Origin: a virus
IMG/VR virus record: IMGVR_UViG_3300027754_000161
Location: 1-45,903 of that record
Strand: one strand, 5' to 3'
DNA: 45,903 bases
Below are positions 14,686 to 45,903 of the stretch, in pieces. A model generated the notes under the pieces. That model ran no database searches. It was not told where the DNA came from and saw only the letters and a program-made list of their open reading frames with translations. A program made the position numbers and the translations under genes. Position 1 is the first letter of the stretch, and every line of letters starts with the position of its first letter.

Positions 14686-15051
14686 TTACAGAAAAGCCAA
14701 AATAGATTGATGTAATTGCTCTCTAGTATAAGGCTTGATTAGGTAATCTTTTATACCTAATGCCATTGCTTTTCCTATCTCTTTTTTATCGTCAAGTCCA
14801 GTTTGTAATATCGTTGGTATCTTAATATTGTTTTTATTTATCCATTCTAATACTTCTAAGCCATTTATTCCAGGCATCTCTAAATCTAAAAATATTATTT
14901 TGACTTCTTGTGGCTTAGCTTTGTCCGATAATATTTCTATAGCCTCGTGGCCAGAAGACGCTAAATACGCTTCGCACTCTATAGAACTCAATACTAATCT
15001 AGCCACTTTCAATATGGCTACTTCATTATCAACAAATAGTATTTTAGACAT
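14686..15051 (-). CDS. Stand-alone CheY-like response-regulator receiver
   Basis: A 121-residue single receiver domain: acidic pocket in KILFVDNE, phospho-acceptor Asp56 in FLDLEMPG, Thr84 in QTG, and Lys106 in DYLIKPY. All key residues are present and there is no output domain. It overlaps the end of the symporter gene by 8 nt and is co-transcribed with it. No histidine kinase is encoded in the window, so it would depend on a host kinase. Symporter, kinase and receiver occur as one CbrA-type hybrid protein in some bacteria; here only the two ends appear. Confidence 0.9.
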   Translation of the reverse strand: MSKILFVDNEVAILKVARLVLSSIECEAYLASSGHEAIEILSDKAKPQEVKIIFLDLEMPGINGLEVLEWINKNNIKIPTILQTGLDDKKEIGKAMALGIKDYLIKPYTREQLHQSILAFL

Positions 15052-16459
15052 TTTTGGTCTCCTTCAATTCACTCGTGATTCCAAAACATTTTAATATTTC
15101 CCACTTCTCAATGAGGTAATGGCTTGTAGTTAATATAATTAGGTTAAACAGCATAGCAGGAGCAATGATATTAAATTTATACTTAAGAACAAATTTAAAT
15201 ATGACTACAAAAACGAACGTAACTCCCATAGTAATAAGCGCGCACCGTTCGGTCGTTTTAAACCCGAATATTGTAGCAAGAAACGGAGGAACGATAATCG
15301 GCATATAAAAAAGGTGTCCAAAGATAATTATGTCAAGTAAACTTCCTTCCTTGAAACAAAAAAGCAAAGACAATAAACCTATAACAATAGTCATTCCCCT
15401 TGCGAAGTATAGTTTTTGTAATTGGTCAAAAGTATTTAGCTTGTAAGTATCATTCGCAATTAAAACCGCGGCGATATTTAAGTTTGAATCGGCCGTAGAC
15501 ATACACATCGAGATTATACCAATAACTAATATTGCCTTAGTCCCGTCGAGAGTGAACAAATCTAATAAAGACGATAGAATCTTATTAGATGGAATATGTG
15601 GATTTGTTTGAAAAAGAAGATAGGAAAAGTAGCATGAGAAGAGTAAAAAAACAGTTAATGAGAGAGATGACCATAAATAAGCTTTTTTTACTTGGCTTAA
15701 GTTGACGCCCATTGATACTCTCTGTACTGTCTGCGGCGACATTGAAGGGATTAAAAAGTATACGCAAAGAAAAAATAGATCTATTTGCTGTTCAGCATTT
15801 AAAGAAAGTAAGTGACTAGGATAAAAATGATCTCCTAAATTATGAACAGGTGTTTCGTATTTTATTATCGTGTTTAGTAATACGATTCCTATTACTAATG
15901 ATAAAGCCAAGCATGTAGCTTGAATTTTATCTGTATGCACAACCGCGTCCACGCCCCCCGAGAATGAATAAAAGATCACGATAGCGCTACTTATCACAAT
16001 ACAGATAGGCTCATTTAAAGACGGGAGCAAATAGTATAAAACACTACCCATAATTTTAAATTGGATATAAATTTTACTGGAAGCAGCGACGCAACCTAGT
16101 ATACCCGTGATAATTCTTACTGTTTGCCCGTACTCCTCACCCATTATCGAAGCAACTGATAATTTTCCTAAAAATCGCCCCATTTTGGGAACTATCCATA
16201 ATGCTAGGATAACCATACCAATGGACATCCCTAGAGAAGCAAGAAAAAAACTAGACCCTTCTTTATAAAACTCAGTTAAATCTATAGTGAAAGCACTGCC
16301 GCTTATCCAGGTAGCCGTAATAGTAGCTCCTAATGCGGCTGTGGAAAATTTTCGTCTGCCTAGAGAGAACGAATTGATACTGCTTACCTGTTTATAAGAT
16401 TTTATCGAGAAGAAGGCTAAATAGGCGAGGAAAGAAATTATTAAAATGTAATCTATCAT
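15044..16459 (-). CDS. Sodium:solute symporter (SSS) family transporter
   Basis: A 471-residue protein with about 12-13 hydrophobic segments. The N-terminus (NSFSLGRRKFSTAALGATI, ATWISGSAF) and SGGVDAVVHTDKIQA block match the SSS/PutP family. Later segments include SPQTVQRVSMGVNLSQVKKAYLW and MCMSTADSNLNIAAVLI, near the family Na+-site region. Substrate cannot be told. Length is typical for a complete transporter with no kinase extension. It is an unusual cargo for a phage and is divergently oriented from the replication operon, with the receiver as operon partner. Confidence 0.9.
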   Translation of the reverse strand: MIDYILIISFLAYLAFFSIKSYKQVSSINSFSLGRRKFSTAALGATITATWISGSAFTIDLTEFYKEGSSFFLASLGMSIGMVILALWIVPKMGRFLGKLSVASIMGEEYGQTVRIITGILGCVAASSKIYIQFKIMGSVLYYLLPSLNEPICIVISSAIVIFYSFSGGVDAVVHTDKIQATCLALSLVIGIVLLNTIIKYETPVHNLGDHFYPSHLLSLNAEQQIDLFFLCVYFLIPSMSPQTVQRVSMGVNLSQVKKAYLWSSLSLTVFLLFSCYFSYLLFQTNPHIPSNKILSSLLDLFTLDGTKAILVIGIISMCMSTADSNLNIAAVLIANDTYKLNTFDQLQKLYFARGMTIVIGLLSLLFCFKEGSLLDIIIFGHLFYMPIIVPPFLATIFGFKTTERCALITMGVTFVFVVIFKFVLKYKFNIIAPAMLFNLIILTTSHYLIEKWEILKCFGITSELKETKNV

Positions 16460-29414: not shown

Positions 29415-29461
29415 CATGGTAAAATATATCGTTATGTTCATATATTCGGTAACTTACCATG
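29415..29461 (+). promoter_or_regulatory. Long inverted repeat enclosing the start codon of the outer-membrane protein
   Basis: CATGGTAAAATATAT (29415-29429) can pair with ATATATT (29440-29446) and TTACCATG (29454-29461), 15 bp with a 7-nt bulge on one side. The second arm includes the ATG at 29459 and no Shine-Dalgarno sequence precedes it. As RNA it would bury the start codon; as DNA it could be an operator, since a TAAAAT -10-like hexamer lies at about 29420-29425. Confidence 0.6.
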
Positions 29462-30169
29462 TTCAAAAACGGATTAATATTTTTTCTAACCACTCTAATT
29501 GGCTTTAATTCCTTAGCTCTTGCAGAGCCAAAGGAGAGCAAGTTATATTTAAAAATGATAACTACAGTCAGCAAAGTCTCTGATATTCAGGCAGTTGATA
29601 AAGAAATGAGTTTTAATTTAGACCACGAATCAAGCCTATCGCCCGCAATAGGCGTAGGTTTTGGTTATTACATTAATGACAAGGTTAGAGTCGACCTAAT
29701 GTACGAGTATTTAAAGTTTAATTTTAGTAAGCAATCAGCTAGTTTTAATTATAGCGACGCTGACATCTTAACTACAGGTACTAAATCTGTCAGAAGCACG
29801 ACTTCCGGCAAATCTTTAATGCTTAATGGGTTTGTCGATCTTGTAGAGAGAAATAGCTTTAAATTCTTCGTAGGCGCAGGAGCTGGAGCAGTACGAATGA
29901 AAGAAAAAGTAACGCAGTCTTTATCAGGAAATTCTACAATAGCTGACCAAACTTACACCTTTCCTTTAATAACTCAGAATACTACTAGCAAAGCGATAAC
30001 TAAATTTGCTCATTCACTAATGCTAGGAACAAGCATAAGTGTTCTGCCACAACTTAATATTGAGCTGCTATATAGTTGGAAAAACTTGGGGAAAGTTAAG
30101 CGCAATGATTTGATGAAGAGTCAATATAAAGGCCATCATTTTTCTATTGCTACACGCTTTGACCTTTAA
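29459..30169 (+). CDS. Outer-membrane beta-barrel protein
   Basis: A 236-residue protein with a signal peptide (MFKNGLIFFLTTLIGFNSLALA, cleavage likely before EPKES). About eight amphipathic strands follow (VGFGYYINDKVRVDLMYEYL, FKFFVGAGAGAVRMK, NIELLYSWKNLGKV), ending in HFSIATRFDL with the aromatic-rich last strand of outer-membrane porin-like barrels (OmpA-like/Opa-like 8-strand type). It lies just ahead of the terminase gene but is not a virion-type protein. It may be a lysogenic conversion or superinfection-exclusion factor displayed on the host surface. Start lacks a ribosome site. Confidence 0.85.
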   Translation: MFKNGLIFFLTTLIGFNSLALAEPKESKLYLKMITTVSKVSDIQAVDKEMSFNLDHESSLSPAIGVGFGYYINDKVRVDLMYEYLKFNFSKQSASFNYSDADILTTGTKSVRSTTSGKSLMLNGFVDLVERNSFKFFVGAGAGAVRMKEKVTQSLSGNSTIADQTYTFPLITQNTTSKAITKFAHSLMLGTSISVLPQLNIELLYSWKNLGKVKRNDLMKSQYKGHHFSIATRFDL

Positions 30170-35026: not shown

Positions 35027-35206
35027 ATGCTTTTAAAAAGACTAGTTGAAACCCTGCGTGAGGAAAAAAATAAAATCGAGAATTATGTCATTAGCGGGCA
35101 GATTCACGACTTTTCTTCATATCGATTTTCCGTCGGTCAAATCAAAGGTATGCAAGATGCAATAGACATATGTCAAAACATATTCAAAGGAAGTACAGAT
35201 GAATAA
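35027..35206 (+). CDS. Small conserved phage protein (59 residues)
   Basis: ATG 35027 opens a frame MLLKRLVETLREEKNKIENY, then HDFSSYRFSVGQIKGMQDAI, resembling a small helical protein encoded next to head genes in many podoviruses. It overlaps the next start by 8 nt, the common coupling distance in this genome, which supports it as a real gene despite its size. Confidence 0.75.
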   Translation: MLLKRLVETLREEKNKIENYVISGQIHDFSSYRFSVGQIKGMQDAIDICQNIFKGSTDE

Positions 35207-35585
35207 AGAAGATTTAGGAATTGATTTAAATAATTTCTCAAAAGAAGAAGAAATCAGCAAGTTTAATGATATTGAACCTCAAGGGTGGACGATATTAGTT
35301 CGCCTTTATACTGAGCCGAAAGTAGTAAACGGCATTTTTAGACCCGATATCGTCCATGACGAACAACAATATAGAAGTTGCGTAGGATTAGTAGTCAAAA
35401 AATCTAAGGCCGCTTATTTAGATCCACGTTACGAACAAACGGGAAAATGGTGTGAGGTTGGTGATTGGGTAGTATTTCCAAGACATGCGGGATACAAAAT
35501 ACAATGCCATAACTTGCCGGTTTTTGTCTTAAAAGAAGATGCAATTGATCTCATCATTTCTGACCCGTCACACATCACAAGATAA
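35199..35585 (+). CDS. GroES-like co-chaperonin-type phage protein
   Basis: A 128-residue protein. Residues about 27-118 follow the GroES layout: GWTILVRLYTEPKVVNGIFR, CVGLVVKKSKAAYLD, GKWCEVGDWVVFPRHAGYKI and LPVFVLKEDAIDLII. The mobile-loop region is short and polar. Phage co-chaperonins, such as T4 gp31, adapt host GroEL to fold the capsid protein. Position ahead of scaffold and capsid genes fits. A GroES-like fold with another function cannot be excluded. Confidence 0.72.
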   Translation: MNKEDLGIDLNNFSKEEEISKFNDIEPQGWTILVRLYTEPKVVNGIFRPDIVHDEQQYRSCVGLVVKKSKAAYLDPRYEQTGKWCEVGDWVVFPRHAGYKIQCHNLPVFVLKEDAIDLIISDPSHITR

Positions 35586-37022: not shown

Positions 37023-38177
37023 ATGCCTTATACCGTAGTAAATGGTAGTACAGTCTACCCCACACAAGTATCGTATCAGTTAATCACACTAACTAATAAT
37101 ATAGTTTTGTCGTGGCCGTCATCTTTTGCCGGTGGTCCAATAGCCGCTGGATTCAATGATGTTGATCCTGACCAAGCTGGGTGGACAATCACCCTCCCAG
37201 ACGCGACACTCGCGGCAACGGGTACGGATGTAATATTTAATAATATTTCTATCTATACCTTTAACATACTAAAAAACGACAACACCCTTTTATACACCTT
37301 GAATCCTGGGGATATTATAGATTTTAAACTCTATGATGCATCAACTGCGGCTGGATTATGGCGTATCATACCATTCGGTGGGGGGTACAACGGCATTGTA
37401 GCGTTTGAAGCTAGCAGTTCAGACAATTCAATAGATATAACCAATGGCAATGTAGTTCCACCCGGTGCGATAATTGATTTTAAACTGCCGGCATCCATTT
37501 TTAACTTAAATAATGTTATTACAACAGGAATACCAGTAATCAAAAGTGTAGCACCCTTAACATGGGCTACTACCACTATAACAGCGGGTACTAATATTAA
37601 TATAACTAATGGCGATGGCATTTTAGGTAATCCAACCATAAATTTACTGCCGGATGTCGTTAACTTAAACTCTCTTCAAGTAGGTGAGTTTACTTTAAAT
37701 GGCCTAGATTTATACACTACTACAGTAGACGGCACCATTTCGCTTGCTAGTAATGGGACGGGATATTTGATTTTAAATGACGTGACGATTGATACTGCCG
37801 GTAATATGGTCGTACCGGGTAATATTACAGTAGACGGGCAGTTTAAGAATCCATTCACTCCAAAGGCTTGGTGTACATTCACCGATATAAGCAATACTAT
37901 AGTTATAGGGGACAAAGCTAATGTTCCAGCTAACGGAGTCACTAGAATTACAGACTCAACAGGATCTTATCAAATCACTTTCTCAACTGCGATGCCTAAT
38001 ATTAACTATGGGGTTTTTATTTCTTTGGGGACTAACGGCGGATCAATTCCTTTTGTTTCTCATGGTTTTTGGACGACAAAAAATTTGGGATCTGTGGTTA
38101 TTTCTATAGCCGATGCTAGTGGAGAGTTAGTAACTGCTTTACCTTACGGGGCTACAGTTATGATAATGTCGAGCTAA
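37023..38177 (+). CDS. Beta-rich fibre-like protein within the head module
   Basis: A 384-residue protein (MPYTVVNGSTVYPTQVSYQL...) rich in Thr, Asn, Gly and Ile, beta-structured with fibre-type segments (TWATTTITAGTNINITNGDG, YLILNDVTIDTAGNMVVPGN). The C-terminal 120 residues (TFTDISNTIVIGDKANVPAN onward) look like a globular tip. It sits ahead of the capsid genes, away from the tail-fibre cluster, so a head fibre or decoration role is possible. No Shine-Dalgarno is seen. Ends before a strong late promoter. Confidence 0.65.
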   Translation: MPYTVVNGSTVYPTQVSYQLITLTNNIVLSWPSSFAGGPIAAGFNDVDPDQAGWTITLPDATLAATGTDVIFNNISIYTFNILKNDNTLLYTLNPGDIIDFKLYDASTAAGLWRIIPFGGGYNGIVAFEASSSDNSIDITNGNVVPPGAIIDFKLPASIFNLNNVITTGIPVIKSVAPLTWATTTITAGTNINITNGDGILGNPTINLLPDVVNLNSLQVGEFTLNGLDLYTTTVDGTISLASNGTGYLILNDVTIDTAGNMVVPGNITVDGQFKNPFTPKAWCTFTDISNTIVIGDKANVPANGVTRITDSTGSYQITFSTAMPNINYGVFISLGTNGGSIPFVSHGFWTTKNLGSVVISIADASGELVTALPYGATVMIMSS

Positions 38178-38211: not shown

Positions 38212-38239
38212 TTGACGAAATGAATAATTTTAATACAAT
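38212..38239 (+). promoter_or_regulatory. Sigma-70-type promoter ahead of capsid genes
   Basis: TTGACG (38212-38217), 16-nt spacer, TACAAT (38234-38239). It lies after the fibre-like gene and before the structured leader of the decoration protein, so it can drive decoration and major capsid genes. Confidence 0.8.
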
Positions 38240-38274: not shown

Positions 38275-38462
38275 AGTTTCTACGAAACTCAAAATCGTAT
38301 CTTTTGGTTGTTCCTCCTCCATAAAAGGAACATGTCAGGCAAGACGTTAAAACGTTGCATCGGTTTATCAAATCTCTCCTTAAAAGATTATCCAATTACT
38401 AGTTTCTACGAAACTCAAAATCGTATTATCGGTCTCTTAAATCTCTACCTTAAAAGATTTAA
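38275..38462 (+). promoter_or_regulatory. Structured leader: two copies of a hairpin element with CC(A/T)TAAA-loop hairpins
   Basis: Copy 1 (38275-38300) and copy 2 (38401-38426) are identical: AGTTTC-TAC-GAAACT followed by CAAAATCGTAT. Each is followed by a second hairpin. After copy 1: TGTTCCT/AGGAACA (38309-38315, 38326-38332) with loop CCTCCATAAA. After copy 2: TTAAATCT/AGATTTAA (38437-38444, 38455-38462) with loop CTACCTTAAA. A further hairpin AATCT/AGATT (38371-38375, 38385-38389) with loop CTCCTTAAA lies between. Stems differ but pair, while the loop keeps CC(A/T)TAAA. It lies in the 5' leader of the gene at 38500. A third copy is at 45693. Confidence 0.75.
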
Positions 38463-38499
38463 AAAAAATAATTTTTTAAATTTAAAACAAGAGGTTTAT

Positions 38500-39255
38500 A
38501 TGGCTTATGGCGTAAATGCACCATTCGGCTTAAGACCACTATCATCAATCAACGGTGGTAGCTGGACTGAAAAAACAAACACATATTATATAAGCGCTCC
38601 CGCAGACGGAGTGGCAACTTACGCAACAAGTATCTTTACAGGCGATCCAGTAATTTGGAATACGGCCAATGCTAACCAAGGCAGCGGCACAATAGCAAGA
38701 TATGGATTTGACACAGACGGTAATGCCGGAACAAACGACGTTTCGATCGTTGGTGTCTTCATGGGCTGTGAATATATGCTGCCAACAGGCGTACTTGTTA
38801 AAGCTCCTTACTGGCCAGCTGCTACAGCAGTTATGCCTGGTAGTAAAATTACAGCTCTTGTCATCGATGATCCAAGTGCAGTTTTTGATATACAAGTATC
38901 GACTTGGACAAACGTATTGGACGAGGCTCGTTTTCCATATGGCTTAATGGGTCAAAACTTTGGACTTGGACTCGGCGGTGGTGGTGCAAACTTAGCTCCA
39001 CAGAATCCAGGTGATGGTAGTACTCGTACCGGTCAATCAGGAGCTTTTTTAGCAACTACATTTACGGCCAACGATATAGCCCATACGGTCATTACCTTAC
39101 CTTTAAAAGTAATCGGTTATACCAATGATCCTATTAATTTAAGTAATCCAATTAGTTATGTAGCAGATGCAACAACTGCCGCTTTCCTAAATGTAATGGT
39201 CACAATCAACAATCATGCTTATAGAGGCGGTTCTCTTGGCGTAGTAGCTGTTTAA
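38500..39255 (+). CDS. Capsid decoration/head protein
   Basis: Start set at ATG 38500 (MAYGVNAPFGLRPLSSI) with GAGG at 38491; the longer upstream frame runs through the structured leader and is not coding. The protein has 251 residues, beta-rich, with YYISAPADGVATYATSIF and GDPVIWNTANANQGSGTIAR, like head proteins encoded just before the major capsid protein in several podoviruses. It probably decorates or forms part of the capsid and is likely highly expressed from the upstream promoter and leader. Confidence 0.75.
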   Translation: MAYGVNAPFGLRPLSSINGGSWTEKTNTYYISAPADGVATYATSIFTGDPVIWNTANANQGSGTIARYGFDTDGNAGTNDVSIVGVFMGCEYMLPTGVLVKAPYWPAATAVMPGSKITALVIDDPSAVFDIQVSTWTNVLDEARFPYGLMGQNFGLGLGGGGANLAPQNPGDGSTRTGQSGAFLATTFTANDIAHTVITLPLKVIGYTNDPINLSNPISYVADATTAAFLNVMVTINNHAYRGGSLGVVAV

Positions 39256-39276
39256 TTATAGAAAGAGTATAAAATT

Positions 39277-40185
39277 ATGATAAATACCGGACAAATCGCT
39301 CAGTTACTCCGCCCTGGTTTAAAGGCGGTCTTTGGGCAATATCCAACATATCCTGAACAATGGACAGAGATATTTAAAACTTACCAATCGGATAAGTATC
39401 AGGAAATCGAAGTTGAGATGAAATATCTTGGCGCAGCTGATATTAAGATGGAAGGTCAACCTATTGCTACTGATAGTATGGGACAAAGAATCGTGACTAA
39501 CTATATTCATAAAAGGGTTGGTTTAAGTTTTACGATTACTAAAGAAGCCGTTGAAGATAATTTGTATCAAAATCAGTTTCCACAACAAGCAATTTCACTT
39601 AGAAATTCTTTAAGGGTAACTAAGAATATTCTTGGTGCAAATGTATTAAATAATGCTTTTAATGCAGCTTATCCTATCGGTGACGGTCAATCAGTATGTT
39701 CTGCAAATCACCCAATTGACGGCGGTGTATTCTCTAATGCCTTTGCTGGAGCGGCTCCAAACGTTGATTTTAGTGAGGCAGGAGTAGAACAAGCTATTAT
39801 TTTGATTCAAAAATTCCCAATGCAAAGCGGGATTTTGTCTCAAACTATGGCTAAAAAACTGATTTTACCGAGAGAGTTGCAATTCGCTGCCTCTAGGTTA
39901 CTTAATTCTGCTTTCCGTGTGGATGTAGCAAACAATGATATTAACGCCTTATATCATAATGATTACATCCCTGATGGTTATAAAATTAATCAGTATCTAA
40001 CTTCGGCTACTGCTTGGTTTATAATTACTGACGCAGAAGATGGATTAAAACATTTTCAAAGAACACCTGTTGAGACTGATACTTACGTTGATTATCCGAC
40101 AGATAACGTTATGGCTAAGGCTACAGAGCGTTATTCTTTTGGTGTATCTAATCCTCGTGGGATCTTTGGTTCACCTGGAGTTTAA
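39277..40185 (+). CDS. Major capsid protein, Mu gpT-like
   Basis: A 302-residue protein starting MINTGQIAQLLRPGLKAVFG. Segments such as WTEIFKTYQSDKYQEIEVEM, RVGLSFTITKEAVEDNLY, CSANHPIDGG and LQFAASRLLNSAFRVD match the gpT family of major head subunits with HK97 fold. Combination with a P22-like tail module shows mosaicism. It is followed by two hairpins, the second a probable transcript end or processing site. Ribosome site GAAAGAG lies ahead. Confidence 0.88.
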   Translation: MINTGQIAQLLRPGLKAVFGQYPTYPEQWTEIFKTYQSDKYQEIEVEMKYLGAADIKMEGQPIATDSMGQRIVTNYIHKRVGLSFTITKEAVEDNLYQNQFPQQAISLRNSLRVTKNILGANVLNNAFNAAYPIGDGQSVCSANHPIDGGVFSNAFAGAAPNVDFSEAGVEQAIILIQKFPMQSGILSQTMAKKLILPRELQFAASRLLNSAFRVDVANNDINALYHNDYIPDGYKINQYLTSATAWFIITDAEDGLKHFQRTPVETDTYVDYPTDNVMAKATERYSFGVSNPRGIFGSPGV

Positions 40186-40190
40186 TTACC

Positions 40191-40257
40191 AATGTGCGAA
40201 AATTGCACATTCCTAAAGAGTATGTAAATTAGAACAAAAACATCTAATTTACATACT
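40191..40257 (+). terminator. Two hairpins after the capsid gene
   Basis: AATGTGC/GCACATT (40191-40197, 40205-40211) is followed by a 15-bp perfect stem AGTATGTAAATTAGA/TCTAATTTACATACT (40219-40233, 40243-40257) with a 9-nt loop, then T/A-rich sequence. It may attenuate transcription after the capsid gene or stabilise its mRNA 3' end. The T-tract is interrupted. Confidence 0.7.
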
Positions 40258-40284
40258 TATTTAAATTTAAAAGAGAGTCGTCCT

Positions 40285-40977
40285 ATGTCTAGATATTTAA
40301 GATATATTTTTCCAGTGGCTAACACCTCGGATGTCTGCATACTACAAAATACTGCTGGGGCGGCTAATCTTGTTTTAAACGGCAATCTCGCTAATCAAGT
40401 GACAAACCAAGTATCATTTATTGATCGTGGATATAGTAGGTCTATTTCTCTTACTTCTGCAAATAACCTTGCGGCAGTAAACTTTACTATTAGTGGTATC
40501 CAAAATGGAGTTCTTATCACGGAAGTGTTAGTAGGGCCTAATGCTAATACTGTTTATTCAGGACAAATTTATGACAAAATTTATTCCATAGCAACAAGTG
40601 GAGCAGTAAACCAAGTGCGAGTTGGCACGGGATATACTGGCTTCTTCCCACTGATTAATATTAATCTTGAACGTGATAATATTAATTATATTTTGACTAC
40701 ATCAAAATTAACTGCTGCAAGTATTCATACAACCATCTTCGCTGTTATTTCGGATATTAGCCATAATGGCACAACTTTTTTAGATGCTGTAAATAATGAT
40801 TTTCATATCTTCACAATCAAAGCAGACACTGCGAATGACCAATATAGATTCCCTATTTTACCAACGGCTGGCATAAGTTTTCAACCATCACTACCATTCG
40901 CCTCTCTTCTGATACATATCAGTGGACAATTGGGAGAGATAGCTAATAGTATTGAAATGAATTTTAGACAAATATAA
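40285..40977 (+). CDS. Virion protein, paralogue A
   Basis: A 230-residue protein starting MSRYLRYIFPVANTSDVCIL. It aligns with the next protein over the first 140 residues: ANLVLNGNLA against GSLLLNGTLK, SRSISLTSANNLAAV against IKSVSLTSVNNLSAI, GPNANTVYS against GPNNNTVYG, and QVRVGTGYTGFF against QVKVGTGNAGYL. Beta-rich, no motif of an enzyme. Position after the capsid gene suggests a capsid-surface or vertex protein. Confidence 0.7.
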   Translation: MSRYLRYIFPVANTSDVCILQNTAGAANLVLNGNLANQVTNQVSFIDRGYSRSISLTSANNLAAVNFTISGIQNGVLITEVLVGPNANTVYSGQIYDKIYSIATSGAVNQVRVGTGYTGFFPLININLERDNINYILTTSKLTAASIHTTIFAVISDISHNGTTFLDAVNNDFHIFTIKADTANDQYRFPILPTAGISFQPSLPFASLLIHISGQLGEIANSIEMNFRQI

Positions 40978-40989
40978 AGGTATAACAAC

Positions 40990-41646
40990 ATGTCTCTTTA
41001 TTCAAAATTAACGTGGCCAGTTGTAGATTTAGCAGCAGTATGCGCTTTACAAGACACGCCTGGAGCGGGTTCTTTATTGTTAAATGGCACATTGAAAAAT
41101 AATAGTGTTCCTGACCAAATCTCTTTTAGAGTAAACAATTTTATAAAATCTGTTTCGCTTACATCGGTAAACAATTTAAGTGCCATTACTTTTGTAGTTA
41201 ATGGTTTTCAAAATAATGCTCCTATTAGCGACACCATTAATGGGCCTAATAACAATACTGTATATGGCGTTAAATATTTTGATGTCATAACTTCTATAAC
41301 GGTAAATGCGGCAGTTAGCCAAGTTAAAGTTGGGACTGGAAATGCTGGATATTTGTCATTATTCGTGGTTAATAGCAACACAAGCAATATTAACTATTCT
41401 ATGTCTGTAATATTTCCGCCATCTGGCGCGGGGATTACTTATTCGCTTTATCAGACATTAGATCAGATTAACAGTAATTTTATTACTTTTGAAAACCAGC
41501 TTAGCAACTTGTTTCCCATTTTAATTAATCAAACAACGTCGCAAATAATCAGTTCTCAGAATGTTACAAATTTTGTTTTATTAAAAGTAGATTCCTCGGT
41601 TACTCCGGTTACCGACACTTTTGATTTCATTTTCTTACAAGCTTAA
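40990..41646 (+). CDS. Virion protein, paralogue B
   Basis: A 218-residue paralogue of the preceding protein, 12 nt downstream. The N-terminal 140 residues are shared; the C-terminal 70 are unrelated, with a helical stretch (YQTLDQINSNFITFENQL). The pair likely arose by tandem duplication with tip divergence, as seen in decoration or fibre-base proteins. Confidence 0.7.
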   Translation: MSLYSKLTWPVVDLAAVCALQDTPGAGSLLLNGTLKNNSVPDQISFRVNNFIKSVSLTSVNNLSAITFVVNGFQNNAPISDTINGPNNNTVYGVKYFDVITSITVNAAVSQVKVGTGNAGYLSLFVVNSNTSNINYSMSVIFPPSGAGITYSLYQTLDQINSNFITFENQLSNLFPILINQTTSQIISSQNVTNFVLLKVDSSVTPVTDTFDFIFLQA

Positions 41647-41663
41647 AATAAAGGTATATTGAC

Positions 41664-41891
41664 ATGTCGCATAGCAGAGCAAAAAGAGAAGTAATGGCTA
41701 AATCTGGAAAAAACTGGATTCAAGGGGCTATAACACCAGAGAATAAAGGTGCTTTACATAAAACATTAGGAATACCTGAAGGCAAAAAAATCCCTGAAAA
41801 AAAACTAGAAAAAGCCACTCATTCGCAAAATGCTTTAACTAGAAAAAGAGCTAATTTAGCTGAGACATTAAAAGGCTTTGGGCGCAAATAA
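41664..41891 (+). CDS. Small basic conserved phage protein
   Basis: A 75-residue Lys-rich protein containing NWIQGAITPENKGALHKTLG, then IPEGKKIPEKKLEKATHSQN and a basic end (LAETLKGFGRK). This pattern recurs in tailed-phage virion operons as a small protein of unknown function. Real-gene status is well supported by position and composition. Confidence 0.75.
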   Translation: MSHSRAKREVMAKSGKNWIQGAITPENKGALHKTLGIPEGKKIPEKKLEKATHSQNALTRKRANLAETLKGFGRK

Positions 41892-41912
41892 TAATTAAAA
41901 AGAGATGTCTTG

Positions 41913-42968
41913 ATGCTTCCTACCTCCGGTACTTTTAATTTTCAATCTATTCAAATCGAGCTTATTATCAGAGAAGCCTTTGAAAGAATAGGTATTTTAG
42001 GGGAGTTTGTAGAGCCTCAAAAGTTAGATTCAGCTAAAAGAAGTATTGATCTTTTGCTTCTAGAGTGGATGAACAAAAGTATAAATCTTTGGACTCTTGA
42101 AATTAGTTACCTTCCTCTTATAACTGCGCAGATACAATATACTTTGCCTGTTACAGTGAGTAATATCATACAAGCGAATCTCAGAACATCGACACGTCAA
42201 TTAGATGGAGTCGCTGCTAGTAGCAATGGTGGTGTAGCTGCTAATGCTTTTGATGGTGACCCACTAACTGCTTGTACTCAAAATGCTGCAAATGGCAATA
42301 TTTCCTATGATTATGGGATGGGGGAAACTCAGCAAATTAACTTTGTGGGCGTTCAATCTAATGTTGATCGTACTTATAATCTAATTATTGAAAGTTCAGT
42401 AAATAATATTGATTGGTTGCCATTGATTACTCTTTCTTCATTGGATTTTGTAAAAGGAGTTAATGTATGGTTTGACGTTCCTACTCCTATTGATGCTAGA
42501 GCTTATCGTATAAGAGAAACTGGTGGAGCGACGCTCGATATACAAGAAATTTATTTTAATAATAATATTCTTGATATGCCTATAAGCAATGTGAGTAGAT
42601 ATGAGTATTTGAATTATCCAAACAAAAGATTAGAAAGTCGTCCAAGTATTTATTATTTGAATCGTCAAATCACGCCTATTCTTAATTTATGGCCTGCGCC
42701 TTCTAATCAATATAATTGTTTGCAATATTCTTATAAACAAATGATTCAGGATGCTGGAGCTTTTTACACTAACGCCTTGGAGATCCCATCACGTTTTTAT
42801 CCGGCTTTGATATGGGGTTTGAGTTATCAACTTGCCTTAAAATATAATCCTCAAGTAGCCGGCGCATTTAAAGGCGAATATGAGCAATCATTTAATCTTG
42901 CCACGATATCGGATTCAGAATCTGTAAACATAAGTATTCGTGGCGATGAAGACTATGGAGAGATTTAA
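41913..42968 (+). CDS. Tail adaptor with inserted discoidin-like (F5/8 type C) domain
   Basis: ATG 41913 is chosen over TTG 41910, giving 351 residues. The outer parts form a P22 gp4-like adaptor: FQSIQIELIIREAFERIGIL, LDSAKRSIDLLLLEWMN and LWTLEISYLPL at the N-terminus, YEYLNYPNKRLESRPSIYYL with RFYPALIWGLSYQLALKY at the C-terminus. Between them (about 95-217) is an insert with discoidin features: ANAFDGDPLTACTQ, YDYGMGETQQINFVGVQS and ARAYRIRETG. Such domains bind carbohydrates or surfaces. The insert explains the excess length compared with ordinary adaptors. Confidence 0.8.
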   Translation: MLPTSGTFNFQSIQIELIIREAFERIGILGEFVEPQKLDSAKRSIDLLLLEWMNKSINLWTLEISYLPLITAQIQYTLPVTVSNIIQANLRTSTRQLDGVAASSNGGVAANAFDGDPLTACTQNAANGNISYDYGMGETQQINFVGVQSNVDRTYNLIIESSVNNIDWLPLITLSSLDFVKGVNVWFDVPTPIDARAYRIRETGGATLDIQEIYFNNNILDMPISNVSRYEYLNYPNKRLESRPSIYYLNRQITPILNLWPAPSNQYNCLQYSYKQMIQDAGAFYTNALEIPSRFYPALIWGLSYQLALKYNPQVAGAFKGEYEQSFNLATISDSESVNISIRGDEDYGEI

Positions 42969-43316
42969 ATGAGTTGGGTTAATCGTTGGAAAGGGAAAAA
43001 TGTAGTTATTGACGCAACGCATCCTTCGGCACTCGGAGTATGCGATGAAAGTGGCCTTGATTTTAACCATAAGGATTTGGTTAAACAAATGGAATGGCGC
43101 GGTGATAGATTAGTATGGACCGGTCTTATGGTCGGTAAACCTTATTTAGACGTGCCGTCAGAACAAAATAGACCGCCGCTTGTAAAAGCTGATCCACGTC
43201 CTATAAAAAACCCGAGACTACCTGGTAACGATGCTTATACCGATCCTAATGGAAATCAAGTTCTGCCAAATACGCAATTAACGACAAAACTACAAAATAT
43301 TAATTGGGGCAATTAA
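42969..43316 (+). CDS. Small tail-module protein
   Basis: A 115-residue protein directly after the adaptor stop. The segment GVCDESGLDFNHKDLVKQM, WRGDRLVWTGLMV and PYLDVPSEQNRPP follows a pattern common in tailed phages next to adaptor genes; relatives often carry Cys residues that may bind metal, of which one remains here. Function unknown, probably structural. Confidence 0.7.
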   Translation: MSWVNRWKGKNVVIDATHPSALGVCDESGLDFNHKDLVKQMEWRGDRLVWTGLMVGKPYLDVPSEQNRPPLVKADPRPIKNPRLPGNDAYTDPNGNQVLPNTQLTTKLQNINWGN

Positions 43317-43329
43317 TTAAGGACTGTCT

Positions 43330-44316
43330 ATGAAGTTTAATGTTTTACATAATTTTATCTCACCAGTTACCGGCAGAATACTTTGTGATCCAAATTATGT
43401 ATTAGTTGGTGATGCAAATGGTATCGCCATACCTACAATTAGCATACCGATTATTACATTACCCAATCTCTCAACAAATAAATTTTGGGTAGGCAGCGCG
43501 ATGGATCGACCAGTTGAAGCAATAGTCGATATCCCCGTTTGTTATGCTGCTACTACTTTAGCTCTGGCTGCAAACTACAATAACGGCATACTAGGAGTAG
43601 GGGCGACGTTAACTTCTACAGCTCCTGGCATATTAACTATTGATTTAGTACCTCCTTTTTTAAACTCTTTAATTTTGGTAAAAAATCAACCAGCTGGTTA
43701 TCAAAATGGAGTGTACGTAGTAACGGTTCTTGGGTCTACTGAGACGCCTTGGGTACTGACTAGAGCTAATATTTATAATAAAACTCATGAAATCAGAGAA
43801 GGCGATAGTATAAGCGTTCAATTCGGCGCAGTTAATGGATTGAGTACATGGGTACAAACTAACATAATTAATAATATTGGGACAGACAGTATTAACTATA
43901 TCGGTCCTATGGGACCAGCTGGTCCAGCTGGACCAGCTGGAGCGGCAGGGGTTGAAGGTCTAGCGGGAATCGCCCTGGGAGGTCTTGCAAAAGGAGTCGG
44001 AAACGGTCTAGTAAGTGCTATTTTTGACGCTACGTTTGGTACGCTAAGAGACTTGCTCGGAGGGGGAGCTAGTTTACTAGGGAAAATTCTTATTACCGCG
44101 GCTTTTGCGCCAGAAGGTGGAGTCGCAGGAGTCGCAGGAGCACCAGGAGCATCCGCAACTTCTGGGCAATCTACATTTTTTATAAATGCCAACTTGAATT
44201 TAAATGGCGGAAGAATAGCAAATATAGAACAATCCCCACAAGCTGATTTCGATGCAATAAGTGCTCGTTTTGTTTGGGATTTATTTAATGATAATGTCGA
44301 GATTAAATGGCAATAA
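43330..44316 (+). CDS. Collagen-like tail fibre protein
   Basis: A 328-residue protein starting MKFNVLHNFISPVTGRILCD. A beta-rich N-terminal domain is followed by a collagen-like Gly-X-Y run (GPMGPAGPAGPAGAAGVEG, residues about 192-212), a Gly/Leu-rich helical segment, a second short collagen-like patch (about 263-274), and a C-terminal STFFINANLNLNGGRIANIE domain. Collagen repeats form trimeric stalks in phage fibres. AGGA precedes the start. Confidence 0.85.
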   Translation: MKFNVLHNFISPVTGRILCDPNYVLVGDANGIAIPTISIPIITLPNLSTNKFWVGSAMDRPVEAIVDIPVCYAATTLALAANYNNGILGVGATLTSTAPGILTIDLVPPFLNSLILVKNQPAGYQNGVYVVTVLGSTETPWVLTRANIYNKTHEIREGDSISVQFGAVNGLSTWVQTNIINNIGTDSINYIGPMGPAGPAGPAGAAGVEGLAGIALGGLAKGVGNGLVSAIFDATFGTLRDLLGGGASLLGKILITAAFAPEGGVAGVAGAPGASATSGQSTFFINANLNLNGGRIANIEQSPQADFDAISARFVWDLFNDNVEIKWQ

Positions 44317-44342
44317 CATAATTTATACACGAGGAATATACT

Positions 44343-45644
44343 ATGCCAATGAGTACTATAACGGTTGCAGGGATTAATCCATGTTTAAATATTCTAGGAG
44401 CTACGCAACAACTTAACTATACGCAACCACTATCTACGTTACAGATAACTAATAGTTTTCTTCCTATTATTGCCATTCCATCGCAATTTAATCATGAATA
44501 TAGAAATAATTTATTTTCTGGGTTTAGGTGGACTCATCTGACGACTAATACCGATACTTATGGTTCTTTGACATTGCAAAATTTTGTGAATGCGCAAGTA
44601 TCGGCTCTCGGTAATAATATGATAAGATTTGACAATACTGGAATCACTATATTCACATCATTAAACCTAAATAGTGGAGTAATCACTAATGCAACATGGA
44701 ATGGAAACACCATAACAGTTCCATATGGAGGAACAGGAATAACTACAACTACACCATATTCAGTTATTTGTGGTGGTACTGGTCCTACAACTTCATTACA
44801 ATCTGTTGCTAGCTTAGGTAATGCTGGTCAAGTATTAACTTCGCAAGGTCCTGGACAGTTACCTATTTGGATGACAAATGGAAATGGAACAGTAACATCA
44901 ATCACGGCTGGTATTGGATTATCAGGGGGCGCAATTACAACTTCCGGTACAATAGATATTACCAATACAGCAGTTACTGCTGGAAATTATACATACGGAA
45001 GCTTTACGGTTAATGCGCAGGGTCAACTAACTGCCGCATCTAATGGAGCTAATCCAGTTTTATTAGTTGTAGGGACGGCTACTAGAATAGGTAGTACGGG
45101 GGGACAAAACCCTGTTATTGATTTGATTGATACTGCGGTTACCCCTGGTAGTTATACCAATACAAATCTAACAGTGGATTCAGCTGGTAGATTGACTGCC
45201 GCATCTAATGGAATTATTGGAGTATTAGCTTCGCTTTATATGAGTGGCAATTTAACGACTACCACTATAACAACGAGTAATACTTTTTATAAAATTGTTG
45301 GTTCTACAACAGCAACTTTGGTAAATAACTTTAGTAGCCCCGCAAATAACAAACTTCAATACACAGGTTCTAATCCTATTGAAGCATTAGTAAGTGTTAA
45401 TATATCAGCAAAGCATACAGAGATTGGGGGAAGTACAATCGGTCTTAGTATTTTTAAAAATGGCACAATACAAATCGCAGCTGCAAATTATGCTTTTCAA
45501 TTATCTACAAATTCAGCTACTTCTCTTTCGTTATCGGTACCTGTAGCATTTATTACGACTGATTTTGTTGAGGTGTTTATAACCTATAACGCGGGAGTTA
45601 ATCCCGTGTTGGTTACTGACATGAATTTAACGGTAACAATATAA
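44343..45644 (+). CDS. Tail fibre/appendage protein
   Basis: A 433-residue Thr/Gly/Asn-rich beta protein starting MPMSTITVAGINPCLNILG, with GAGG upstream. The N-terminal part includes SGFRWTHLTTNTDTYGSLTL. The middle holds two repeats around GNYTYGSFTVNAQGQLTAAS and GSYTNTNLTVDSAGRLTAAS. A globular tip (about 290-433) follows. Repeats and composition fit a receptor-binding fibre next to the collagen-like fibre. Confidence 0.75.
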   Translation: MPMSTITVAGINPCLNILGATQQLNYTQPLSTLQITNSFLPIIAIPSQFNHEYRNNLFSGFRWTHLTTNTDTYGSLTLQNFVNAQVSALGNNMIRFDNTGITIFTSLNLNSGVITNATWNGNTITVPYGGTGITTTTPYSVICGGTGPTTSLQSVASLGNAGQVLTSQGPGQLPIWMTNGNGTVTSITAGIGLSGGAITTSGTIDITNTAVTAGNYTYGSFTVNAQGQLTAASNGANPVLLVVGTATRIGSTGGQNPVIDLIDTAVTPGSYTNTNLTVDSAGRLTAASNGIIGVLASLYMSGNLTTTTITTSNTFYKIVGSTTATLVNNFSSPANNKLQYTGSNPIEALVSVNISAKHTEIGGSTIGLSIFKNGTIQIAAANYAFQLSTNSATSLSLSVPVAFITTDFVEVFITYNAGVNPVLVTDMNLTVTI

Positions 45645-45674
45645 TAGATAATTATAATTTTTTAAAAAATCTGT

Positions 45675-45752
45675 TATAATAAACTTTTCTACAGTTTCTA
45701 CGAAACTTAAAATCGTATTTCGGGTTTAAACGTTCTTAGCCATAAAAAGAAT
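45675..45752 (+). promoter_or_regulatory. Promoter -10 and third copy of the structured leader element
   Basis: TATAAT (45675-45680; weak -35 TTATAA at about 45652) is followed by AGTTTC-TAC-GAAACT at 45693-45707 and TAAAATCGTAT (45708-45718), one base different from the copies at 38275 and 38401. A second hairpin follows: GTTCTT/AAGAAT (45732-45737, 45747-45752, one G-T pair) with loop AGCCATAAA. The first hairpin would lie very near the transcript's 5' end. Confidence 0.72.
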
Positions 45753-45798: not shown

Positions 45799-45903
45799 AT
45801 GCCGAGACCGCCAATAACAACTTTTTCAAGCTTAGCAGTTAAAGAAAGTCCTACTAACAACAATAACGGTTTTTACGCACCGCAATTAACTGCGGCACAA
45901 ATA
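45799..45903 (+). CDS. N-terminus of a further fibre-like virion protein (partial)
   Basis: ATG 45799 opens a frame of 35 codons to the window end (MPRPPITTFSSLAVKESPTN... APQLTAAQI). The PQLTAAQI segment is of the kind found near the start of phage fibre proteins. The frame is open at the edge. It follows the third leader element, so it is a late gene. Joining it to the fragment at base 1 keeps frame, but the content suggests a longer unseen gene or genes between them. Confidence 0.55.
   Translation, partial: MPRPPITTFSSLAVKESPTNNNNGFYAPQLTAAQI

Follow-up and report, generated by a model that had tools for sequence, protein, structure and literature searches.

A predicted pseudoknot module conserved in leaders of capsid-operon and tail-fibre genes of an uncultured phage family

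What is the short sequence that recurs in front of late virion genes in the viral record IMGVR_UViG_3300027754_000161, and what might it do there? The window analysed is the whole of this 45,903-base IMG/VR record. A sequence-only reading of it had described a 26-nt element present three times, always in a leader, and a scan of the full record bears this out: exact copies lie at 38275 and 38401 (C form) and at 45693 (T form), all on the + strand, and nowhere else. Window copies by themselves would not settle the status of a looser version, since a 15-mer allowed 2 mismatches was seen 5 times within the window for 3.4 expected, insufficient to place it above chance. Further copies in related genomes, which the same reading had proposed to look for, do exist: the exact 26-mer was found in 24 IMG/VR stretches and a degenerate form of it in 35, in the same genetic place.

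The sequence-only reading had seen in these leaders of late virion genes a selected RNA structure, and had drawn it as the hairpin AGTTTC-TAC-GAAACT. The first part stands, and is backed by covariation; the hairpin is replaced. TCGTA in the element's tail forms pairs with TACGA, which comprises bases from the hairpin loop and its 3' arm, and from this covariation the block is best read as an H-type pseudoknot of about 25 nt, composed of S1 (AGUU:AACU, 4 bp), a loop 1 of 1-2 nt, S2 (UACGA:UCGUA, 4-5 bp) and an A-rich loop 3. Two-sided changes keep S2 paired, wholly or nearly, as UGCGC...GCGUA (L041), UACGC...GCGUA (L042), UACGC...GCGUC (L043), UACGU...ACGUA (L064) and UGCGA...UCGCA (L014, L078, L083), the last pair being seen as A-U, C-G and U-A. 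When mapped onto a downstream-gene tree, the double change of this last pair arose at least 3 times in first modules and 3 times in last modules, about 6 separate events. The first pair of S1 went from A-U to G-C about 5 times in all, and S1 occurs as GGUU:AACC in several lineages.

The rows of alignments A1 and A2 were picked by a descriptor requiring pairing, and the main test is therefore A3, an alignment of 156 matches collected by a sequence-only model that was built to limit circularity and was itself seeded from A1. In A3, 96% of S2 cells are paired, 19 cells have both sides changed against 4.4 in shuffles, and S2 beats every slid version of the helix. RNAalifold, which cannot draw pseudoknots, picks S2 alone from the core alignment; on the gappy A3 alignment it gave no pairs, and nested-structure folds of single modules were not clearly better than shuffles. 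Three other pairings were rejected. The 6-bp hairpin AGUUUC-UAC-GAAACU shows 0 compensatory changes; 12 distinct rows keep S2 yet have lost the U5:A11 pair. In AAUC:GGUU, taken from minimum-energy folds, GGUU is unchanged in modules where U23 becomes G or A. An extra pseudoknot between GG and the loop CC involves partners that are both too conserved to be informative, and L022 alters both, not compensatorily in the same register.

The pseudoknot is followed by a GGUU stretch and then by a short hairpin, hairpin B, with a variable stem and a CCnUAAA loop; this order defines the module. The claim that each window copy precedes a hairpin of differing but paired stem, whose loop retains CC(A/T)TAAA, holds up: in 72 distinct modules with 38 distinct arm pairs, a module's own hairpin B arms pair at 11.9, swapped arms at 9.1 (sd 0.27), and the highest of 300 swaps reached 10.0. 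The unpaired AAA of L3 and the CC and AA of the loop are conserved more than the hairpin B stem, as specific recognition would predict. Some leaders depart from this scheme. In three first modules (L013:2208-2238, -; L061:5063-5093, +; L082:6998-7045, +) the CC-loop hairpin is replaced by another that has neither GG nor CC, for example TTACTTT-CTAC-AAAGTAA. In three others (L068:800-890, L077:6860-6918, L079:6860-6917) a differing hairpin, with no promoter, lies just 5' of the first module; its stem, CCCACAA/TTGTGGG or GGYTACAA/TTGTAGCC, varies in sequence among phages.

Could the 26-nt block instead be a DNA site, an operator or a recombination site in which the hairpin is incidental? It does hold a perfect inverted repeat, and its recurrence before paralogous fibre genes could provide homology for cassette exchange. 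Against this, the pairing of hairpin B and of the non-palindromic S2 is preserved, the block is always on the coding strand, and L041, L042, L043, L060 and L064 break the inverted repeat and keep S2, all of which makes a DNA site very improbable.

The sequence-only reading had also noticed a fourth loop at 38376 and two elements in the capsid leader. The loop (38376-38384) is real, yet it does not stand alone: it belongs to a diverged module at 38334-38389 that likewise has the A-rich loop, GGUU and hairpin B, so that the capsid leader has, besides its two type I modules, a third (Table 1). The sequence-only model detects the shared 3' part of this middle module with a weak score. Its 5' part, here called type II, reads GUC-AGGCAA-GAC in the window and GUC-A-NNCG-A-GAC followed by AAAA-CGNN in relatives, which suggests the same pseudoknot in a different sequence; the loop-tail pairing lies just above swapped controls (9.2 vs 8.45, sd 0.28). 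At two loci of one contig (L084 and L143) all three leader modules are type II, with S1 variants ACGUC:GACGU, GCGUC:GACGC and GUGUC:GACAC.

Table 1. Features of the capsid-operon and fibre leaders of the window and of the genes they precede
Feature	Position	Strand	Evidence
Sigma-70-like promoter TTGACG-16-TACAAT, capsid operon	38212..38239	+	Consensus scan; same place in relatives
Module 1, predicted type I pseudoknot	38275..38299	+	S2 covariation
Module 1 parts	S1 38275-38278:38286-38289; L1 38279-38280; S2 38281-38285:38295-38299; L3 38290-38294	+	
Module 1 hairpin B TGTTCCT/AGGAACA, CC in loop; GGTT before it at 38306-38309	38309..38332	+	Arm-swap test, 72 modules
Module 2, type II pseudoknot candidate: GUC AGGCAA GAC, A-rich loop, CGTTGC	38334..38359	+	Sequence-only model, loop-tail pairing
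Module 2 hairpin B AATCT/AGATT, containing the fourth loop	38371..38389	+	Arm-swap test
Module 3, predicted type I pseudoknot, 99 nt 5' of AUG	38401..38425	+	Covariation, sequence-only model
Module 3 hairpin B TTAAATCT/AGATTTAA	38437..38462	+	Arm-swap test
A+U-rich linker and ribosome-binding site AGAGG	38463..38499	+	Linker A+T composition
Capsid-operon gene MAYGVNAPFGLRPL..., 251 aa	38500..39255	+	Synteny with cultured relatives
Major capsid protein	39277..40185	+	PHROG phrog_371 major head protein; relatives annotated MCP
Alternative promoter of fibre gene, 11/12	45616-45645	+	Consensus scan
Extended -10 TGTTATAAT of fibre gene, 12 nt 5' of module 4	45675..45680	+	Consensus scan
Module 4, predicted type I pseudoknot, 106 nt 5' of AUG	45693..45717	+	Covariation, sequence-only model
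Module 4 hairpin B GTTCTT/AAGAAT, loop AGCCATAAA	45732..45752	+	Arm-swap test
Fibre-type gene start MPRPPITTFSSLAVKESPTNNNNGFYAPQL..., cut by window end	45799..45903	+	Same family 3' of modules in relatives

Module carriers number more than 50 contigs, every one of them metagenomic, and a variant with a shorter loop 1 is present in additional contigs. When 23 records were searched whole, 17 had type I modules (one of the 17 by a marginal match), usually 3-5 per record, on a single strand within each record and always on the coding strand. Against Rfam 15 the module had no match at the gathering threshold and nothing convincing at relaxed E-values, in keeping with the earlier view that the RNA was undescribed. 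A scan of prokaryotes, one genome per species, gave just 3 unrelated single matches, and BLAST of the leader against cultured phages gave chance matches only. More distant relatives, among them the cultured phages 023Pt_psg01, HTVC023P and CRP-902, carry no module and have 7-82 nt at the corresponding place. Judged by comparison of sequences, the module is a conserved, previously uncatalogued RNA of an uncultured phage family.

Wherever the gene after a module is readable, it is either the MAYG.NAPFGL capsid-operon gene, which directly adjoins the major capsid gene on its 5' side, or a fibre-type gene beginning MPxxITxF, MPRSAITRINGG and kin. Capsid leaders carry two to four modules, fibre leaders one. 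No SSB gene bears the module, and none of the genes scanned was a known SSB gene. The MAYG protein possibly has a role in head decoration: its predicted structure (pLDDT 60) has no significant fold match and weakly resembles capsid decoration proteins. An alternative reading, in which the ORF from 38308 lengthens the capsid-operon gene in frame at its N terminus and across the leader, was rejected, since the leaders of relatives vary in length and indels; the frame looks like a chance one in the window copy. Fibre-type paralogues form tandem cassettes, each with its own module (L007:3472-3535, -; L008:6332-6386, +; L017:2033-2087, +), whose first bases overlap the preceding gene's stop codon, as if gene and leader co-move. 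In the window, a fibre-like gene (37023-38177, +) lies immediately 5' of the leader; as it is missing from this place in cultured relatives, both gene and leader look inserted. Elsewhere the window encodes a sodium:solute symporter (15044-16459, -; Pfam SSF), possibly host-derived; an outer-membrane beta-barrel protein with a signal-like N terminus and weak Surface_Ag_2 similarity, just 5' of the terminase gene (29459-30169, +); and a GroES-like co-chaperonin (35199-35585, +), whose Cpn10 score is just below the Pfam cut-off and whose position is that of the annotated GroES gene in cultured relatives.

Repetition of short H-type pseudoknots with A-rich loops is also a property of the type III antitoxins ToxI, CptI and TenpI, and the modules might be decoys that mimic such RNAs and absorb a host endoribonuclease. 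The short S1 and S2 and the A-rich loop 3 would suit this idea, and there is a precedent in phage TE, which evades ToxIN via a pseudo-ToxI (PMC5086642). Type III antitoxins are, however, tandem repeats followed by a terminator and then a ToxN-like gene, whereas the present copies sit in mRNA leaders, are tied to start codons, lie about 75-150 nt apart with hairpins between them, and are single before fibre genes. Because there is neither an array nor an adjoining toxin-like gene, mimicry fits less well, and I regard it as having hardly any likelihood.

Distance to the start codon varies little among the leaders. Measured from its first base, the last module stands 82-109 nt, about 97, 5' of the AUG in 40 distinct leaders, whether capsid-operon or fibre-type. 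The linker 3' of hairpin B averages 93% A+T in these leaders, compared with 64% for the window, and from -45 to -15 element-bearing starts have 87% A+T, against 75% for the remaining start regions whose gap is 50 nt or longer. Relative to mononucleotide shuffles, the linker contains UUUAA 40 times (17.4, sd 3.4), whereas UUAAA itself, at 23 times (16.1, sd 3.2), shows no clear enrichment. Promoter-like scores upstream are 9.96 for first modules (mononucleotide shuffles 8.77, sd 0.14) and 7.77 for internal ones (8.45), and most first modules lie 8-37 nt 3' of a promoter-like -10. On the + strand of the window's late region, the leader sites are among the best promoter-like sequences (45616-45645, 11/12; 38212-38239, 10/12, tied). 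The module-promoter distance is loose, and some copies, seemingly without a promoter in the gap, start at the preceding stop codon.

A promoter near the first module brings to mind HK022 put RNA, a cis-acting phage RNA that binds the zinc domain of the RNA polymerase beta' subunit and gives terminator read-through. The modules could likewise modify RNA polymerase as it leaves a late promoter, for their two structured parts stand at, or close to, the beginning of transcripts driven by sigma-70-like promoters. Put RNAs, of about 70 nt, have two stem-loops downstream of promoters too, but early ones (PMC9378689). The stem-loops of put are long, whereas here the fold is a pseudoknot whose S2 helix is supported, the narrow distance is to the AUG and not to the promoter, and the capsid leader repeats the module. 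Moreover, terminator-like sites in the window's late region (10, against 10.9 in shuffles) do not stand out. Put-like action also fits less well; I consider it quite unlikely.

The main rival to a translational operator is mRNA stabilisation. Here the modules would be passive: folded RNA near the 5' end would shield abundant virion mRNAs against 5'-end-dependent decay, and the linker would leave the ribosome site accessible. Closeness of most first modules to a promoter-like -10, the A+U-richness of the linker and the abundance of the encoded virion proteins all agree with it. Passive protection, however, needs no strict conservation of loop bases or of the S1 and L3 sequence, several copies without a nearby promoter abut the preceding stop codon, and in capsid leaders there are two to four copies of the module. 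Stabilisation is unlikely, though less so than put-like action.

Sequence comparison establishes the S2 helix, hairpin B, the strand, the genes and the narrow distance to AUG. Since the start codon is the most constant reference and the conserved letters include unpaired ones, the data point to a protein-recognised translational control site. To the reading in which the module is a protein-bound translational control site on virion genes, with the layout of the T4 gene 32 operator, I give a probability of roughly 45%. A putative protein made during infection would recognise the pseudoknot and the CC loop, and would then spread along or block the A+U-rich linker, a probably unstructured stretch of 30-50 nt followed by the Shine-Dalgarno sequence and AUG. 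Ribosome loading on capsid-operon and tail-fibre mRNAs would thereby be controlled and the virion genes adjusted together, the two to four modules of the capsid leader offering more binding sites than the single module of fibre leaders. Repression or feedback seems a more likely sign of control than activation. Of the roles proposed by the sequence-only reading (translation, mRNA stability or antitermination), I infer from the tight AUG distance that translation is favoured over antitermination. Several points count against an operator: the linker may be an ordinary ribosome site, A+U-rich like the genome around it; a near-constant AUG distance could follow from compactness of the leader, without any translational role; S2 is just 4-5 bp; and SSB genes do not bear the module.

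A further proposal, which I hold to be doubtful, is that of an RNA-level phage regulon in which one putative infection-made protein would bind capsid-operon and fibre modules alike and, through translation, determine in what ratio virion parts are made. Fibre cassettes would then bring their own operator, and the module would be a second, unrelated viral leader-pseudoknot operator. Leader pseudoknots controlling phage translation are rare. A leader RNA with covariation support, not in Rfam and tied to virion genes across a broad group of uncultured phages, is both a marker for that group and a testable lead on the post-transcriptional balance of capsid and fibre.

The closest known layout is that of the T4-like gene 32 operator, in which a pseudoknot of about 28 nt precedes a less structured stretch of more than 40 nt that holds UUAAA/UAAA units and the ribosome-binding site, and whose 5' part may overlap the preceding gene (PMC535899, PMC3014915); a 2010 review of T4 noted that this pseudoknot may be the sole viral example used in autoregulation (PMC3014915). 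The module is not filed as a member of this class, because the gene is not that of an SSB and because binding and repression are putative here. What the T4, T2 and RB69 operators share with the present leaders is an H-type pseudoknot of about 25-28 nt placed 5' of the start, A+U-richness of the RNA that follows, ribosome site included, and a 5' part that may reach into the gene before. They differ in that the gene 32 operator serves SSB, whereas the modules serve capsid-operon and tail-fibre genes; in the conserved CC-loop hairpin that here stands between pseudoknot and linker; and in number and spacing, with up to four modules per leader and 82-109 nt to the AUG, compared with 67 nt in the gene 32 operator.
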